This document shows, in pieces, positions 43,719 to 52,040 of a stretch of DNA of 64,000 nucleotides. The DNA comes from Terriglobus roseus (lineage in GTDB: Bacteria; Acidobacteriota; Terriglobia; Terriglobales; Acidobacteriaceae), in NCBI RefSeq assembly GCF_900102185.1, contig NZ_LT629690.1, positions 2,480,001 through 2,544,000 of the forward strand. The letters are read 5' to 3'. Each line of letters starts with the position of its first letter. Position 1 is the stretch's first letter. The position numbers and the translations under genes are program-made. The notes beneath the pieces were generated by a model. It was not told where the DNA came from. It made no database searches and saw nothing but the letters and a program-made list of their open reading frames with translations.

Positions 43719-43949
43719 GCAGACAGATACGTGAAATGACGTCCTTTGGTTCCGGTCATCCCATTGGACGTCGCGGCCTGTGCCGAGGATTCACAGGGAG
43801 GTTTTCGGGCCCAAATTCCTGGAAAGATGTGGATTTCTCGTTCGAAATGGCGCCAAGTTCGGCACTTGGCCCTTCCACGTGGGTTATTGACGAGGTGTAA
43901 ACTGAATCTCTGTCAGGTCCTTTCCCCCTGGCAAGGAGTTCTCGACTCG

Positions 43950-45230
43950 ATGAAAACTTCCAAGGGCTCTGACGACTCGCTACGGTGCTCGTTCTGCCAT
44001 AAGTCGCAGGATGCAGTGGCGAAGCTGATCTCTTCCCCATCGGATTACCCACGCGCGTACATCTGCGACGAGTGCGTTGCTGTCTGCAACTCCATTCTGG
44101 AAGACGACCGCGCAGAGACCACGCCCGGATCGGCTCCGGCGCATCTGCCGAAGCCGCACGAGGTGAAGGCATTCCTCGATGAGTACGTCATCGGCCAGGA
44201 TCTCACCAAGAAGAAGCTTGCCGTAGCGGTCTACAACCACTACAAGCGCATCCAGATGAACCGCACGCGCGGTAACGACGTTGAGCTTGCTAAGTCGAAT
44301 ATCCTTCTCGTTGGCCCAACGGGCAGCGGCAAGACCCTGCTGGCACAGACACTGGCGAAGATGCTGGATGTTCCCTTCGCGATTGTTGACGCCACCACGC
44401 TGACTGAAGCTGGCTATGTGGGTGAAGACGTAGAAAACATCATCCTGAAGCTGCTGCAGGCTGCTGACGGCGACGTGACACGCGCACAACAGGGCATCAT
44501 CTACATCGACGAAATCGATAAGATCGGCCGCAAGGACGAGAACCCATCGATTACGCGCGACGTGAGCGGAGAAGGTGTACAGCAGGCTCTGTTGAAGATG
44601 CTTGAAGGCACTGTTGCCAATGTTCCGCCACAGGGTGGCCGCAAGCATCCTCACCAGGAGTTCACTATCGTAGATACGACGAACATCCTGTTCATCTGCG
44701 GTGGTGCTTTCGTAGGCCTGGAAAAGGTCATTGCACGCCGTATCGGTAAGAAGGCTCTTGGCTTCAAGACCACAGTCGAAGGCAAGGAAGCAGAAGTTAC
44801 TCCTATCCGTCCACAGCGCGACACGGAGATGCTGCGTCAGGCAGAACCGCAGGATCTGCTGAAGTATGGCTTGATTCCCGAATTCGTCGGTCGTCTGCCC
44901 GTGCTGGGAATCCTGGATGAATTGGACGAAGCGGCGCTGATCGATATTCTGACCCGCCCACGCAACGCCATCCTGAAGCAGTACGCGAAGCTGTTCGAGT
45001 TTGAAGGTGTGAAGGTCACTTGGACGCCGGAAGCAGCACAAGCCATCGCCCATGAGGCTTTGAACCGCAAGGTGGGTGCTCGTGGTCTACGCATGATTCT
45101 GGAAGAACTGATGCTGGACCTGATGTACACCGTGCCAACGAACAAGAAGATCAAGGAGCTGGAGATTACGGCAGAAATGGTGAAGAACCGTACTGTCGCC
45201 TTGCCTTTGCCCCTTGAAAAAGCTGGCTGA
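43950..45230 (+). CDS. clpX: Clp protease ATP-binding subunit ClpX
   Basis: A 426-residue AAA+ unfoldase. The N-terminal zinc-binding domain has four cysteines ([14 protein letters not shown] and [13 protein letters not shown]), followed by [20 protein letters not shown]. Walker A is [16 protein letters not shown] and Walker B is [14 protein letters not shown]. The ClpP-contacting IGF-like loop falls in the [13 protein letters not shown] region. Start at ATG 43950 after AAGGAG; an upstream in-frame extension of 68 codons is non-family sequence. A strong terminator follows. It recognises tagged substrates and feeds ClpP. Confidence 0.97.
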
Positions 45231-45240
45231 TATCTAAAAG

Positions 45241-45279
45241 CAGAACGCGGCGACCATCACGGTCGCCGCGTTCTGTTTT
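45241..45279 (+). terminator. Terminator after clpX
   Basis: CAGAACGCGGCGACC (45241-45255) and GGTCGCCGCGTTCTG (45261-45275) form a perfect 15-bp stem followed by TTTT. lon therefore has its own promoter in the next 105 bp. Confidence 0.93.
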
Positions 45280-45385
45280 GCATCTGATTTCCCCGCAAAC
45301 TTACACCCCACAAAGGCAGTACAATCACCGGAAGCGTCACACGTCGCATCCTGCGCTGTGTTGCCACGTCTAATGAGGGAGACCC

Positions 45386-47812
45386 ATGCCGAAACAGACT
45401 GATCAGCCCCACGGCGAAGTACGTAAACTCCCCATGATGCCCATCCGCGACATGGTCATCTTTCCGCACATGATGACCCCGTTTGTCGTAGGACGCGAAT
45501 CAAGCGTGCGCGCGCTGGACGAAGCGCTTACGGGCGACCGTAAGATCTTCCTCGCCACGCAGCATGATGCCAGCATCGACGAACCCACTTCCGACGACAT
45601 CTACGAGACAGGCACTATCGGCAACATTGTGCAGTCCGTCAAGATGCCCGATGGCAACATTAAGGTCCTGGTGGAAGGCGTCGAACGCGCCCGCACCATG
45701 GAACTGAACGACGAAGACGGTTTCTTCGTCGCCACCGTGCGCACTGGCAAGACTGAACTTGTCGTTACGCCGCAGATTGAGCAGTTGATGCAGGTTGTGC
45801 AGCAGCGTTTTGAGCAACATCTGAAGCTGCAGCAGAGCCTGAACTACGAGACGATGGTGGCCAGCGTTCGCACAGACGATCCCACCAAGCTGGCAGACGT
45901 GATCGCCGCAAACCTGCAGCTCTCCATTGAAGAGAAGCAGGAACTACTGGATCTTTTCGATCCCGCACAGCGCCTCTCCAAGATCGCTGACGTACTCGAC
46001 ATTGCAATCGAAAAGCTCAACATGGACCGCACCGTGCAATCGCGCGTGAAGCGGCAGATGGAGCGCGCGCAGAAAGAGTACTACCTCAACGAGAAAATCA
46101 AGGCCATCCAGAAGGAACTGGGGCGCGGCGAAAAGTCCGAGTGGGACGAGCTGAAGAAGAAGATTGAAGCCGCTGGCATGCCGAAGGAAGCCTTTGACAA
46201 GGCGATCCAGGAGCTTAAGAAGCTTGAGGCCATGCCGCCCATGTCCGCGGAATCCACTGTCAGCCGCAACTATCTTGACTGGCTTCTGGCCGTGCCGTGG
46301 AAGAAGAAGTCCAAGGACATCCGCAACATTGAACATGCGGAAACCATTCTGAACGAAGACCACTACGGACTGCCGAAGATCAAGGACCGCATCCTTGAGT
46401 TCCTCGCAGTACGACAGTTAGTGAAGAATCCTAAGGGTTCCATCCTTTGCTTCGTAGGACCTCCGGGTGTGGGTAAAACATCGCTCGGCATGAGCATTGC
46501 CAAGGCTACCGGACGCAAGTTCGTCCGCATGTCTCTTGGTGGCGTCCGTGACGAAGCTGAGATCCGCGGTCACCGTCGTACGTACATCGGTTCCCTGCCC
46601 GGTCAGATCATCCAATCGATGAAGAAGGCTGGAACGAAGAACCCCGTGATCATGCTCGACGAAGTGGACAAGATGGCCAGCGACTTCCGTGGCGATCCGT
46701 CGGCAGCGTTGTTGGAAGTTCTCGATCCTGAGCAGAACGCGACCTTCCAGGATCATTACCTCGACGTGGAATATGACCTGTCGCAGGTGCTCTTCGTAGC
46801 CACGGCAAACGTGCTGCACACGATTCCCGGCCCGCTGCAGGACCGTATGGAAATCCTGCGTCTGCACGGCTACACGGAAGTCGAGAAACTGGAAATCGCC
46901 AAGCAGTACCTGGTCAAGAAGCAGATGGAAGCTACCGGCCTCACGGCGGACAACATCGAGTTCTCCGACGAAGGCCTGAAGGAGCTCATCCGCAGCTACA
47001 CCCGCGAAGCTGGCGTTCGTAACCTGGAACGCGAGATTGGCAACGTCTGCCGCAAGGCAGTGCGTCGTGTAGTGAAGGAAGGCACGAAGCACAAGAAAGA
47101 GTCCATCACCGCAGAGAACATTGCGGATTACCTTGGCCCTCAAAAGTTCCGCGACTCGATCATGCAAGAGAAGAGCGAAGTGGGCCTTGTTACCGGCCTG
47201 GCATGGACAGAGGTTGGTGGAAGCATTCTGCAGACCGAAGTTCAGGTGCTGGACGGTAAGGGCAAGCTCACCACCACAGGTCAGCTTGGCGATGTGATGC
47301 AGGAGTCGGCACAGGCTGCGCTCAGCTACGTACGTTCGCGTGCGCAGCATCTCGGCCTGCCCAAGGATTTCTACCGCAACATCGACATCCACGTACACGT
47401 TCCAGAAGGTGCTATCCCCAAGGATGGTCCCTCCGCAGGTATCACATTGGCTACGGCGCTCACCTCTGCGTTGACCATGATTCCTGTGCGACGCGACATC
47501 GCTATGACCGGCGAAGTCACACTACGCGGTAAGGTGTTGCCGATTGGTGGATTGAAAGAGAAGCTTCTTGCAGCGCACCGCGCGGGCATCCGCGAAGCCG
47601 TCATGCCCAAGGACAACGAAAAGGACTACGCCGAATTGCCTCAACTCATCAAGGATGAGATGAAGCTCCACTTCGTCGCGGAGATGGACGACGTCCTGAA
47701 GCTGGCGCTGGAAGGCCCCTTGCCAAAGCTGGAAGACGAAAAGCCCGAGGCGCTCAATAACAAGATGCCGCCTCCGAATGCACTTCGCCCTGCTACGGAA
47801 GCAAGACAGTAA
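45386..47812 (+). CDS. lon: ATP-dependent protease Lon
   Basis: An 808-residue Lon A-type protease. The N-terminal LAN domain spans residues 14-210 ([20 protein letters not shown]). The AAA+ module has Walker [20 protein letters not shown], Walker [20 protein letters not shown] and [16 protein letters not shown]-type [18 protein letters not shown]. The proteolytic domain has the catalytic Ser in [17 protein letters not shown] and the Lys in [20 protein letters not shown]. Length and order are normal. It acts in the cytoplasm on misfolded and regulatory proteins. Confidence 0.97.
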
Positions 47813-48422: not shown

Positions 48423-48704
48423 TTACTTGCATCCACCTGCAATCGAAGGGATGAACATCACTTCATCACGATCCTGGAACTGGTAGGTATCGCCGCCCAG
48501 GAAGCGGATATCTTCGTCATTCACATACACGTTGATGAACTTACGCAGCGTGCCGTCCTCGTCCTTGATGTGCGTGCCCAGCTCCGGGAACTTCACTCCC
48601 AAATCTTCCACCAGCGCGGGCAGCGTTGCTGCCTCAGACTGCACCTGCTTTGTTCCTGACGTGTGCCGCGCAAAGGCGGCGGGAAGCATTACTCGAATTG
48701 CCAA
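48423..48704 (-). CDS. CysO/MoaD-type sulfur-carrier protein with GGCK tail
   Basis: A 93-residue ubiquitin-fold protein. It resembles mycobacterial CysO along its length: H.SGTKQV, TLPALVEDL, LRKFINVYVNDEDIRFLGG and the ending DEVMFIPSIAGGCK. Carriers of this type are adenylated and sulfurated at a C-terminal Gly-Gly to give a thiocarboxylate. The extra Cys-Lys after GG must be removed first, usually by a JAMM/Mec-type metalloprotease, which is not in the window. The start is TTG 48704: AGGAGG lies 8 bases before it, and the stop of the upstream PLP enzyme is one base away (TAAGTTG). The pair is translationally coupled and under the SAM riboswitch. Its likely partner is the threonine-synthase-like enzyme. 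Confidence 0.88.
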   Translation of the reverse strand: MAIRVMLPAAFARHTSGTKQVQSEAATLPALVEDLGVKFPELGTHIKDEDGTLRKFINVYVNDEDIRFLGGDTYQFQDRDEVMFIPSIAGGCK

Positions 48705-48705
48705 C

Positions 48706-49998
48706 TTAGTTTCCTCCTGCAAGTGCCAGTTCCGGCTCTGCAGTTGATGCAGCAACTCCGTCCAGCTCGTTGATGTACTCTTCAAAGTCCGTCAGACGCG
48801 GACGCACTGCACGGCCCAGCGTAAAGCGGTCAGCCACACAATCGGTCGTCTTCAGACCATTGCCCGTGATGAAGACGACAGTCAGTTCATCCGCTGCGAT
48901 GCGGCCCTGCGCAATCAGCTTCGCGGTTACAGCAGTCGTGACGCCACCAGCCGTCTCCGTGAAGATGCCTTCGGTCTCCGCCAGCTCCTGAATGCCGCTG
49001 ACCACTTCGATGTCCGAAACATCCTCAGCCCATCCGCCTGTCTCGCGGATCATGCGCGATGCAAAAGGACCATCCGCAGGATTGCCAATCGCCAGCGAAC
49101 GCGCAATCGTGGAAGGCTTCTGCGGCGTGATGGTTTCGGTATTGTTCTTCACTGCCTGCGCAATGGGCGAGCATCCCGTAGCCTGCGCACCGAAGAAGCG
49201 CACATGCTTCTTCTCCACCAGGCCGAGGTAGACCAGCTCGTCAAATGCCTTCTTGATCTTGCGGATCAGAGAACCACCGGCCATCGGAACCACGACGTTA
49301 TCCGGCAGCTTCCATCCCAACTGCTCTGCAATTTCAAAGCCCACAGACTTGGAACCTTCTGCGTAGTAAGGACGCAGATTCACATTCACGAAGCCCCAGT
49401 TGTATTGATCGGCGATCAGGCTGCACAGTCGATTTACGTGGTCATAGTTACCGTCGATACGCACCAGACGCGCACCGTAAATGAGCGTGTTCAAGATCTT
49501 CGCAGGCTCAAGATCAGCGGGAACGAGGATGCAAGCCTTCATGCCAAGTCGAGCTGACTGCGCCGCCACCGAGTTCGCCAGGTTGCCCGTGGAAGAGCAG
49601 CCAACGACTTCAAAACCAAATGCACGTGCATTCGCCAGCGCAACTGCCACCACGCGATCCTTAAAGCTCAGCGTAGGAAAGCAGACCGCATCATTCTTCA
49701 CGTACAGGTTCTGCGACCCAAGACGCTTGCCCAAATTCTTAGCGCGCACCAGCGGCGTAAATCCAACCGGAAGATCCGGTTCAAATCCTTCAGGAATGGG
49801 CAACAGTGAGCGATAGCGCCACATGTTGTCCGGCCCTGCTTCAACAATCTTCTTCGTGAACAATGGCTTTGCAGCCTCAAGGTCGTAGCGCACTTCCAGC
49901 GGAGTAAACGACTCGTCGCAGATGCTCAGCGGCTGGTTGCCATAGCTCTTACCCGATTCCTTCGAGTAAAGCTCATACGGTGTACACGCAGACGACAT
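48706..49998 (-). CDS. thrC: Threonine-synthase-like PLP enzyme under SAM riboswitch control
   Basis: A 430-residue fold-type II PLP enzyme. The PLP lysine is in FPTLSFKDRVVAVALANARA, the phosphate loop in GCSSTGNLANSVAAQSARLG, and FITGNGLKTTDCV closes the active site, all as in threonine synthase. Where the family usually has a zinc ribbon before LEVRYD, only single cysteines remain (SSACTPYEL, SICDESF). Start at ATG 49998 after GAAGAAGG. The reaction could be threonine synthesis from O-phosphohomoserine. The SAM-I riboswitch upstream and the coupled CysO-like gene suggest instead, or in addition, sulfur transfer to O-phosphohomoserine to give homocysteine. That is inference. Confidence 0.85.
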   Translation of the reverse strand: MSSACTPYELYSKESGKSYGNQPLSICDESFTPLEVRYDLEAAKPLFTKKIVEAGPDNMWRYRSLLPIPEGFEPDLPVGFTPLVRAKNLGKRLGSQNLYVKNDAVCFPTLSFKDRVVAVALANARAFGFEVVGCSSTGNLANSVAAQSARLGMKACILVPADLEPAKILNTLIYGARLVRIDGNYDHVNRLCSLIADQYNWGFVNVNLRPYYAEGSKSVGFEIAEQLGWKLPDNVVVPMAGGSLIRKIKKAFDELVYLGLVEKKHVRFFGAQATGCSPIAQAVKNNTETITPQKPSTIARSLAIGNPADGPFASRMIRETGGWAEDVSDIEVVSGIQELAETEGIFTETAGGVTTAVTAKLIAQGRIAADELTVVFITGNGLKTTDCVADRFTLGRAVRPRLTDFEEYINELDGVAASTAEPELALAGGN

Positions 49999-50155
49999 AG
50001 AACCCTTCTTCCAAGGGTGGAAGAAAGACAATGCATGCGACGCTCTCTTTGGATTTGGCGCGTTCCATGGCGATGGACGACGCCGCGCGGAAGGAAGTCT
50101 GATTAGACGGTCATACTGCTGGTCCGACCAAGGTGCGGAGAAGCTGTATCCCGAA

Positions 50156-50257
50156 TCTCATGTTCCCCGGTTCCCCAGGAGAGAGTTGACACCGGTACAG
50201 ACCTCGTCCGGTTGTCGTGGCGTCGCAGGGCTCATCCCTCAACCACTCTTCATGAAA
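50156..50257 (-). ncRNA. SAM-I riboswitch upstream of thrC and the sulfur-carrier gene
   Basis: On the minus strand AGAGTGGTTGAGGGATGAGC then CCTGCGACGCCACGACAACC follows the SAM-I consensus AGAG.GG..GAGGGA..GGCCC..UGA.GCC..GGCAACC at nearly all conserved positions. It continues with P3 (CCGG...CCGGTGTCAA), P4 (CTGGGGAACCGGGG) and a closing P1 formed by TTTCATG (50257-50251) and CATGAGA (50162-50156). The aptamer ends about 160 bases before the thrC start. I could not define a clear terminator or anti-terminator in that stretch, so control may be on translation. High SAM should lower expression of both genes. Confidence 0.9.
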
Positions 50258-50299
50258 TCCGAATCTGCTTGATGCAATTGCAGAAAAGGATGTTGCTTC

Positions 50300-50328
50300 T
50301 TTATACCAATGCGCCGAAGTCCATGCAA
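50300..50328 (-). promoter_or_regulatory. Sigma-70-type promoter for the riboswitch-thrC-carrier operon
   Basis: On the minus strand TTGCAT (50328-50323), a 17-base spacer and TATAAA (50305-50300). The expected start of transcription is near 50293, about 36 bases before the riboswitch P1. Confidence 0.65.
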
Positions 50329-50404: not shown

Positions 50405-50791
50405 CTAGCTGCCCGTATGGGACAGGATGGTGCGAACACCCGACACAAAGCGATGAGGATCAAACTCCGTGCGCAGGATTTCGTCCGGGCAATCCGTCAA
50501 TACCGCCACTCGCCAGTTGCACACAAACGCCACAACCTGTTCCGGCTGGTCTGTCTTGATTTCAGAGCAAAGGCTCTCGGCAGCTTTCACCTTGTCCTCG
50601 CCCTCAACATCAATCAGCACCAGGTCGTATTGCTTGGCCCAGAACAGAGTGAGGCCCTCGGCGGTGGACAGCGTGGAATCTACTTCGAATCCGGAAAGTC
50701 GTAGGATCTGATCGCGTAAAGGACGCAGCGTCTCTCGCGAACAGATATGCAGGATATTTTTTGTCGGAGTTTCAGAAGGGATCAAAGGCAT
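50405..50791 (-). CDS. Degenerate response-regulator receiver-like protein
   Basis: A 128-residue single domain resembling a CheY-type receiver. It has ILHICSRETLRPLRDQILRL, GFEVDSTLSTAEGLTLFWAK and QYDLVLIDVEGEDKVKAAES, with Asp60 at the phosphoacceptor position. The acidic pair at the first strand is replaced (HICS instead of VDDD), and the usual K of the last strand is not clear, so phosphorylation is doubtful. No output domain and no kinase neighbour. It is on the minus strand, upstream of the SAM riboswitch unit with its own presumed promoter, and divergent from metH. Function unknown. Confidence 0.65.
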   Translation of the reverse strand: MPLIPSETPTKNILHICSRETLRPLRDQILRLSGFEVDSTLSTAEGLTLFWAKQYDLVLIDVEGEDKVKAAESLCSEIKTDQPEQVVAFVCNWRVAVLTDCPDEILRTEFDPHRFVSGVRTILSHTGS

Positions 50792-50933
50792 ATTTAGCCA
50801 TCGTCTGTATGCCTCTTTGCACGTGAAAGAGGCGTCAGTGCAGATGCATTCTCAGTGTACAAAACCAGACGCCACGTGTGAAAGGGGGCTTCCGGCGCGT
50901 CGCATCTCACTCCGGTATCATCAAATCTTCACC

Positions 50934-52036
50934 ATGTTTTCGAGCAGCGATCAACATTCTTTGCGTAAAGTCCTCCAGGAGCGCATCGCCATCATCGATG
51001 GCGCTATGGGCACCACCATCCGTACCTACGGGATGACGGAAGCCGACATGCGCGGTGAACGCTTCAAAGACGCCCCCAAAGACCTGCTGAACAACGGTGA
51101 TCTCTTCTCGCTCACGCAGCCAGATATGATCTGCGACATCCATCGCCGGTTCCTTGTGGCGGGCGCAGACATCGTGGAAACGAACACGTTTTCAGCCACC
51201 GGCATCGCTCAGAGCGAGTTCTTTGTGGAAGATCCGCGCGAACACGGCGGACGCAAAGACCCTGACTTCTACCAGAAGATTCTTGAGAATAAGTTCCTCA
51301 ACGACTTGGCATGGGAGATCAACGAAGTCTCAGCGCTGCAATGCCGCGAATGGGCGGACAACGTGGCCAGCGATGATGGCCGCCAGCGCTTTGTTGCAGG
51401 CGCTATCGGCCCTCTGACGGTATCGTTGTCCAACTCGCCAGATGCTGACGATCCTGGCTTCCGCGTTGTGACATTTGATCAGGTTCGTGAAGCCTACAAG
51501 CTGCAGACACGTGCACTGATTGCGGGTAAAGTCGACACCCTGCTCGTCGAAACCATCTTCGATTCGCTCAACGCGAAGGCCGCGCTTGTGGCCATCCGCG
51601 AAGTCTTTGACGAAGACAAAGTCGAGCTTCCGGTGATGATCTCCGCGGCCGTTGGACGCGGTGGTGAGACGATGATCTCCGCCCAGACAGTCGAAGCTTT
51701 CTGGAACGCGGTGAGTCACGTGAATCCGCTGTCTGTTGGCTTGAACTGTTCCATCGGCCCGGACCTCATGTTCCCCTTCCTTAGCGAACTGGCAGCCAAG
51801 GCCCACACCGCCATCAGCGCTTACCCCAATGCCGGCCTGCCCAACCCGTTGTCTCCCACGGGCTTCGATCTGGAACCGGAAGACATGGCACGCTTCCTCG
51901 GCGACTTCGCAAAGAATGGCCTCATCAACATTGCAGGCGGATGCTGCGGCAATACCCCCGAGCACATCGCCGCCATCGCTAAAGCGCTGGAAGGCAAGCA
52001 CCCGCGTGAGTACGCATTGGAATTGGCAGGAGCACG

Positions 52037-52040
<4 letters not shown>
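50934..52040 (+). CDS. metH: Methionine synthase, homocysteine-binding part (split MetH)
   Basis: A 368-residue protein equal to the first domain of cobalamin-dependent methionine synthase. It has [60 protein letters not shown] and the zinc ligands in [12 protein letters not shown] and [14 protein letters not shown]. It ends after this domain with a stop that overlaps the next start (ATGA), preceded by AGGAG, so the second part is translated by coupling. The two polypeptides together cover the full enzyme. Start at ATG 50934; no B12 or SAM riboswitch is evident in the 142 bp upstream. Confidence 0.93.

Follow-up and report, generated by a model that had tools for sequence, protein, structure and literature searches.

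An operon of two genes in the soil bacterium Terriglobus roseus very probably encodes a homocysteine synthase of the MetM/MetO type under SAM-I feedback, with both the activity and the switching predicted from sequence. The operon lies on the minus strand of the window, by which we mean the whole 64,000-nucleotide stretch of DNA analyzed, in a genome (G000) of 4.85 Mb on a single contig. Read along that strand, a SAM-I aptamer is followed by a leader of 156 bases, the gene of a 430-amino-acid PLP enzyme and the gene of a 93-amino-acid carrier. The initial annotation had proposed that the enzyme would form homocysteine from O-phosphohomoserine and the carrier thiocarboxylate, which is supported by the match to MetM/MetO, a separate thrC-thrB pair, the apparent absence of other routes, and the conserved linkage. 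It had also held that no published pathway uses a threonine-synthase relative in this way, a statement that is outdated: the accessible part of one report (PMC12172450) describes MetM/MetO of Streptomyces albulus (Hasebe et al. 2024) as a threonine-synthase-like homocysteine synthase with a neighboring sulfur-carrier gene, and places a SAM riboswitch upstream of metM. As MetM/MetO is already published, the proposed scheme is that pathway met again in Acidobacteriota. Our literature search, with most subscription journals outside its reach, found no paper on MetM/MetO in Acidobacteriota. Within that reach, the T. roseus system appears new in its host group and in some details, and known in kind.

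The aptamer (50155–50258, minus strand) matches the SAM-I (S-box) family RF00162 (72.3 bits, gathering score 44.4, E 5.6e-15). The match spans the full length of the model (1–108 of 108), and no deviation from the family was seen in it. This Rfam check confirms the aptamer that had been placed at 50156–50257, which is the only SAM-I match found in the genome. A promoter had been described as well. A consensus scan with a threshold of 9/12 gave no hit upstream of the aptamer; by eye, TTGCAT (50328–50323), a 17-base spacer and TATAAA (50305–50300) can be read on the minus strand (50300–50328) with 8 of 12 consensus matches, so the promoter is plausible only.

The expression platform looks translational, with a predicted leader hairpin (50004–50027, minus strand) that would sequester the Shine-Dalgarno sequence of metM. 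Its local fold amounts to -13.1 kcal/mol, with z -2.37 against single-base shuffles. The letters of the hairpin differ in several relatives (CUUUCC/GGAAAG, CUCUCC/GGAGAG), and in some comparisons between relatives both arms vary in sequence, which points to translational control. Over 20 loci, with 200 single-base shuffles each, the z-scores run from +1.23 to -2.74; in one of these loci (L036) no start codon was found where it was expected. The whole leader is no more stable than its shuffles (z -0.69), and our claim is therefore limited to the local hairpin, which is possibly a new point. An intrinsic terminator was also considered as the expression platform and rejected, no terminator-like site having been found in the leader.

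The metM-like gene (48706–49998, minus strand; ATG at 49998, stop at 48706) encodes a PLP enzyme of the threonine-synthase family, as had been assumed: it matches PF00291, and its score for TIGR00260 thrC, 276 bits, exceeds the cut-off of 167. Of the 25 families listed, the highest-scoring CysK/CysM model reaches 30 bits against those 276, so that the protein falls outside the cysteine synthase subfamily of CysM and by score belongs to the ThrC branch. Its nearest solved structures are threonine synthases. Several cysteines in N-terminal cysteine motifs (window 49900–49998) that most relatives keep are, by alignment, serines here and in the nearest relative.

Our tree of 89 rows, obtained by a quick search with long branches flagged, holds 79 clade rows, eight ThrC-type rows and two of the threonine-dehydratase type as outgroup. 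Homologs from Nonomuraea gerenzanensis and Microcystis novacekii are included; S. albulus MetM is not among the rows. All 79 clade rows fall on one branch, apart from the eight ThrC-type rows, with an SH-aLRT value of 99. The Nonomuraea locus follows the T. roseus order of SAM-I, enzyme and carrier, and its carrier ends in GG; a gene that reads by eye as a GroEL chaperonin lies nearby. At 26 positions the 36 carrier-linked rows are nearly fixed and at least seven of the eight ThrC-type rows are different. At these positions the carrier-linked clade rows depart from the ThrC-type residue pattern, although the TIGR00260 sequence cut-off, taken by itself, is passed by the T. roseus enzyme. Of 14 clade rows in which no carrier is linked, 11 deviate at signature position 216 and 12 at position 349, the latter with the ThrC residue P. 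MetM-like genes without a linked carrier were seen beside thrB in L170, L175–L178, L182, L185 and L188, some of them near a second thrC. As several of these unlinked genes adjoin thrB, that subclade may differ in function.

The metO-like gene (48423–48704, minus strand; TTG at 48704, stop at 48423) encodes a ubiquitin-fold sulfur carrier (PF02597 ThiS, 48 bits). One base, a G, separates the TAA of the enzyme gene from the TTG of the carrier, and a GGAGG lies within the terminal part of the enzyme gene, in agreement with the one-base spacing and coupling Shine-Dalgarno first noted. The closest solved structures are 3dwg (61.9 bits), which we take to be CysO, and 4n6e, a ThiS/MoaD family protein. 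While a neighboring carrier is present as proposed, its C-terminus is AGG-CK (GGCK) instead of bare GlyGly, so that trimming would be needed before it could serve. Among the best 80 of at least 587 candidate loci, all 37 cyanobacterial carriers end in GG, and 19 of the 21 named Acidobacteriota carriers have 1–33 residues after GG. Bare GG ends are found in carriers of eleven Acidobacteriota genomes from other families. The carriers of L034, L082 and L153 have cysteine-rich tails of 17–33 residues after GG. In two ThiS::NIL fusions a NIL domain stands behind the carrier GG (L100 11257–11772, L146 6336–6851). Carriers capped after GlyGly and NIL-domain carrier fusions are possibly new points.

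A strong Prok-JAB match (over 60 bits, a weak match in G026 being taken as absent) was counted by hand in all 21 genomes whose carriers are capped versus 5 of 11 with bare GG. JAB is present in all 26 same-family genomes, including the five without MetM, and relatedness thus explains much of this association. The association is suggestive but confounded; capped carriers are expected to depend on a peptidase that trims them. In T. roseus itself a JAB peptidase gene precedes a gene for a ThiS::ThiF::rhodanese fusion by 32 bases (L162 6073–8117; genome 2789072–2791116), and the products of this pair would be suited to trimming and loading a carrier. As the carrier part of the fusion ends in SIAGG-A inside the protein, the JAB peptidase might also cut that carrier free.

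The comparison across Acidobacteriota suggested in the initial annotation shows a conserved linkage between enzyme, carrier and SAM-I, and SAM-I was found upstream in 20 of 20 same-family metM-like loci scanned. An even family draw of 41 genomes, with 40 genera represented, contains metM in 20, of which 15 have SAM-I 113–269 bases before the protein match. Fourteen of these hits exceed the gathering score, and the one in G266, cut by the contig end, has 44.3 against 44.4. No SAM-I was seen in the other five metM genomes (in G264 a contig end lies 205 bases from the start), and at E 0.001 none was found in the 21 family-draw genomes without metM. In a phylum draw of 247 genomes, 60 have a clade protein with at least 47% identity (partial in G112 and G215), and a clear gap separates them from the next matches near 38%. 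SAM-I lies within 400 bases in 20 same-family genomes and 12 others of these 60, at the head of a longer operon (2.3–2.4 kb) in four and at 1.4 kb in one; no linked SAM-I was found in the remaining 23, where it is on another contig in G215 and the sequence is cut inside the gene in G112. A carrier is linked in 32 of the 60 and not in 28; G241, where the script found no usual start codon, was scored as linked by reading its DNA.

Beyond the phylum, we scanned the named loci, the best 80 of at least 587 candidates (1.28 Mb), with a covariance model built from 21 aptamers. The scan gave 20 aptamers, all at most 250 bases ahead of the metM-like gene. They belong to 15 of the 22 Acidobacteriota loci and to five others, and none was found in the 38 cyanobacterial loci. 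This is in line with the Microcystis locus, which the accessible text of PMC12172450 gives as having no SAM riboswitch upstream. A carrier match stands beside the gene in 75 of these best 80 loci, within 500 bases in 74. Near metM-metO the same best 80 show an E1 in 11 loci, a CysM-like gene in 10 and JAB in two. Four genomes of one acidobacterial family (G019, G128, G153, G169) have an operon of SAM-I, ThiF E1, class-V aminotransferase, metM and metO (L232 1756–5611, also L233, L234 and L235; Pfam checked in two of four). With its cysteine desulfurase-like aminotransferase, this SAM-I-headed operon is, as predicted from its gene content, a complete set for carrier charging and transfer. Two other riboswitch observations can be added. 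In G235 a SAM-II (SAM_alpha) match (L045 3741–3815, minus strand), just above its cut-off with 36.3 against 36 bits, precedes a metM-like gene by about 1 kb. In MetA genomes of another acidobacterial family SAM-I can lie directly ahead of metA (G158 C12:20325–20449, 104 bases), metA being the expected partner of the SAM-I riboswitch.

The initial annotation had suggested looking for an ordinary homocysteine route. In T. roseus we found no MetA, no DUF39/HcyA, no convincing MetX (best stretch 96 bits, positions 5–216 of 351) and no MetY above its cut-off (best stretch 187 bits against 495). Among 26 same-family genomes, 21 have MetM (one partial), four have MetX, none has both and one, G210, has neither. 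MetX was called at 200 bits or more, since no genome reaches the curated cut-off of 500 bits; at 130 bits the MetM genomes G103 and G241 would count as MetX. MetX and MetY are neighbors on one contig in G007, one of the four MetX genomes. In G210, which is 99% complete, no MetM, strong MetX, MetA or HcyA was found.

In the phylum draw MetX alone occurs in 3 of the 60 clade genomes versus 55 of the 187 others. Any of MetX, MetA and HcyA was found in 1 of 32 carrier-linked clade genomes versus 79 of 187 non-clade genomes (Fisher p 4.6e-6, relatedness uncorrected), and in 5 of 28 clade genomes without a linked carrier. Six of the 60 clade genomes thus also have MetX (G077, a fragment, G125, G221) or MetA (G175, G188, G237). 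Taken singly, MetA and HcyA show no significant avoidance of clade genomes in this draw. In the family draw, MetY is found in 4 of 20 genomes with MetM versus 12 of 21 without (p 0.025). TIGR01326 matches are present in all 41 of these genomes, MetM or not, so genes of the PF01053 type do not mark the route.

It is improbable, in our judgment, that the enzyme is a threonine synthase (or synthase/deaminase) paralog through which SAM tunes flux at the O-phosphohomoserine branch point while the carrier serves something else. The TIGR00260 score above cut-off favors this, as does a Microcystis homolog reported to have both activities. The accessible part of the MetM/MetO report cited above (PMC12172450) gives this protein as 51.6% identical to S. 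albulus MetM; when purified it formed threonine from O-phosphohomoserine and deaminated threonine at high threonine. With Na2S it is reported there to give an unidentified peak only, not proven homocysteine, in assays described without carrier thiocarboxylate, and its full MetM function in the cell is doubted (PMC12172450). These findings are the main evidence against the MetM/MetO reading; the clade genomes that also hold MetX or MetA, the family MetM genomes with MetY, those in which no linked carrier or no SAM-I was found, and G210 with neither route likewise speak against it. T. roseus, however, already has a thrC-thrB operon. Three of the seven PF00291 matches in its genome are of the ThrC type: the metM-like gene, L005 and L004. 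Two bases after L005 comes a GHMP kinase, in which Pfam finds GHMP domains only and which we read as homoserine kinase (thrB) from sequence and place. As L005 (thrC) is directly followed by this thrB-like kinase, threonine synthesis appears to own a separate operon, and with a third ThrC-type gene also present the metM-like gene need not serve threonine; the second thrC that had been anticipated is thus found, together with thrB. The carrier next to the gene in so many of the best 80 of at least 587 loci, the replacement pattern with MetX and the 26-position signature set against the ThrC-type rows also argue against a threonine synthase, and we infer that SAM repression fits methionine better than threonine synthesis.

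Homocysteine might instead arise by a plant-like route, in which L008, cystathionine gamma-synthase-like, would join O-phosphohomoserine and cysteine, the lyase L009 would follow, and the riboswitch operon would serve methionine metabolism in some other way. According to the accessible text of PMC13257386, methionine synthesis in plants starts from O-phosphohomoserine and cysteine, and the genome has both PF01053 genes, full-length, L009 being a cystathionine beta-lyase by its model. Yet L008 is ambiguous in type, scoring alike for lyases and synthases and reaching the cut-off of none of the 25 families listed. The one SAM-I found in the genome belongs to the metM operon and to neither of these genes, and TIGR01326 matches occur throughout the family draw with or without MetM, all of which makes this route very unlikely. 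We give hardly any credence to a cysteine synthase like CysM/CysO, which would use O-phosphoserine and the carrier thiocarboxylate: the best solved relative of the carrier is 3dwg, taken to be CysO, and CysM-like and JAB-like genes accompany some metM-metO pairs (10 and two of the best 80 of at least 587 loci), but L006 is a CysM-like gene of its own elsewhere in the genome, linked CysM is an additional gene where present, the enzyme belongs by score with ThrC rather than with CysK/CysM, and SAM-I control fits methionine.

The split MetH noted at the outset is indeed encoded nearby on the plus strand, as a homocysteine-binding half (S-methyl_trans, PF02574, 250 bits; 50817–52040) and a pterin-binding, B12-binding and activation half (PF00809, PF02607, PF02310, PF02965; 52037–54745). 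Between metH and the riboswitch is a 128-amino-acid ORF without a Pfam family (50405–50791, minus strand), with relatives near metM in L080 and L083. Downstream of the operon, ORFs named by eye as clpX-like and lon-like occupy window positions 43746–47812, and lon is also near metM in L079–L081 and L192. In the proposed pathway, homoserine kinase, encoded by thrB elsewhere in the genome, would provide O-phosphohomoserine. The JAB peptidase would trim the carrier tail from GGCK to GG, and the E1-rhodanese protein would adenylate the GG end and convert it to the thiocarboxylate. MetM, the PLP enzyme, would then eliminate phosphate from O-phosphohomoserine and add the carrier sulfur where threonine synthase would add water, releasing homocysteine, which the neighboring split MetH would methylate. 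When SAM is abundant it would bind the aptamer and metM-metO translation would fall, probably via the hairpin over the ribosome-binding site.

The individual parts of this scheme have counterparts in known systems. Hasebe et al. 2024, in AEM 90:e01247-24, reportedly identified thiocarboxylated MetO as the sulfur donor for MetM, and such Streptomyces strains are said to lack the usual homocysteine route. The T. roseus operon resembles that of S. albulus, as far as the accessible account shows, in the threonine-synthase-like enzyme, the adjoining carrier gene and the upstream SAM riboswitch; it differs in phylum and in a carrier ending in GG-CK, bare GG being known from the Nonomuraea carrier. 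In the Wolinella HcyS/HcyF/HcyD and MetY system, Krishnamoorthy and Begley (2011) reportedly found a protein thiocarboxylate to be the sulfur donor for homocysteine, with a JAMM peptidase said to trim the carrier tail and a MetY-type enzyme said to use O-acetylhomoserine. A carrier thiocarboxylate donor and tail trimming by a peptidase are both proposed here as well, whereas the T. roseus enzyme belongs to PF00291 and not PF01053, and no MetX, MetA or MetY was found. In mycobacterial CysO/CysM/Mec, a PLP enzyme of fold type II acts on an O-phospho amino acid, and CysM makes cysteine. The carrier fold (3dwg, 61.9 bits) and the enzyme type acting on an O-phospho amino acid would be shared, and the T. 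roseus enzyme differs in lying in the ThrC branch. ThrC itself is alike in sequence family, TIGR00260 score and nearest solved structures, while the metM-like enzyme forms a separate clade with its own residue signature, SAM-I control and a linked carrier.

Since only a few routes to homocysteine are recognized, the methionine pathway of many sequenced bacteria seems to have gaps, and at least one more route was said in 2018, in the accessible part of PMC5764234, to await discovery. For the Acidobacteriota we tentatively suggest, with somewhat less than even confidence, that MetM/MetO is the main homocysteine route, swapping genus by genus with MetX/MetY. Its carrier would be a capped pro-protein (GG followed by 1 to 33 residues, or by a NIL domain in two other loci) cut by JAB, which would add a level of control that the cyanobacterial version with its bare GG does not have. 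SAM would be sensed at the RNA and perhaps methionine on the NIL-fused carrier. The residue signature may separate carrier-paired enzymes from true threonine synthases. Judging from the best 80 of at least 587 loci, genes labeled as threonine synthase and paired with a ubiquitin-like carrier are suggested to mark this route in Acidobacteriota and nine other named phyla.
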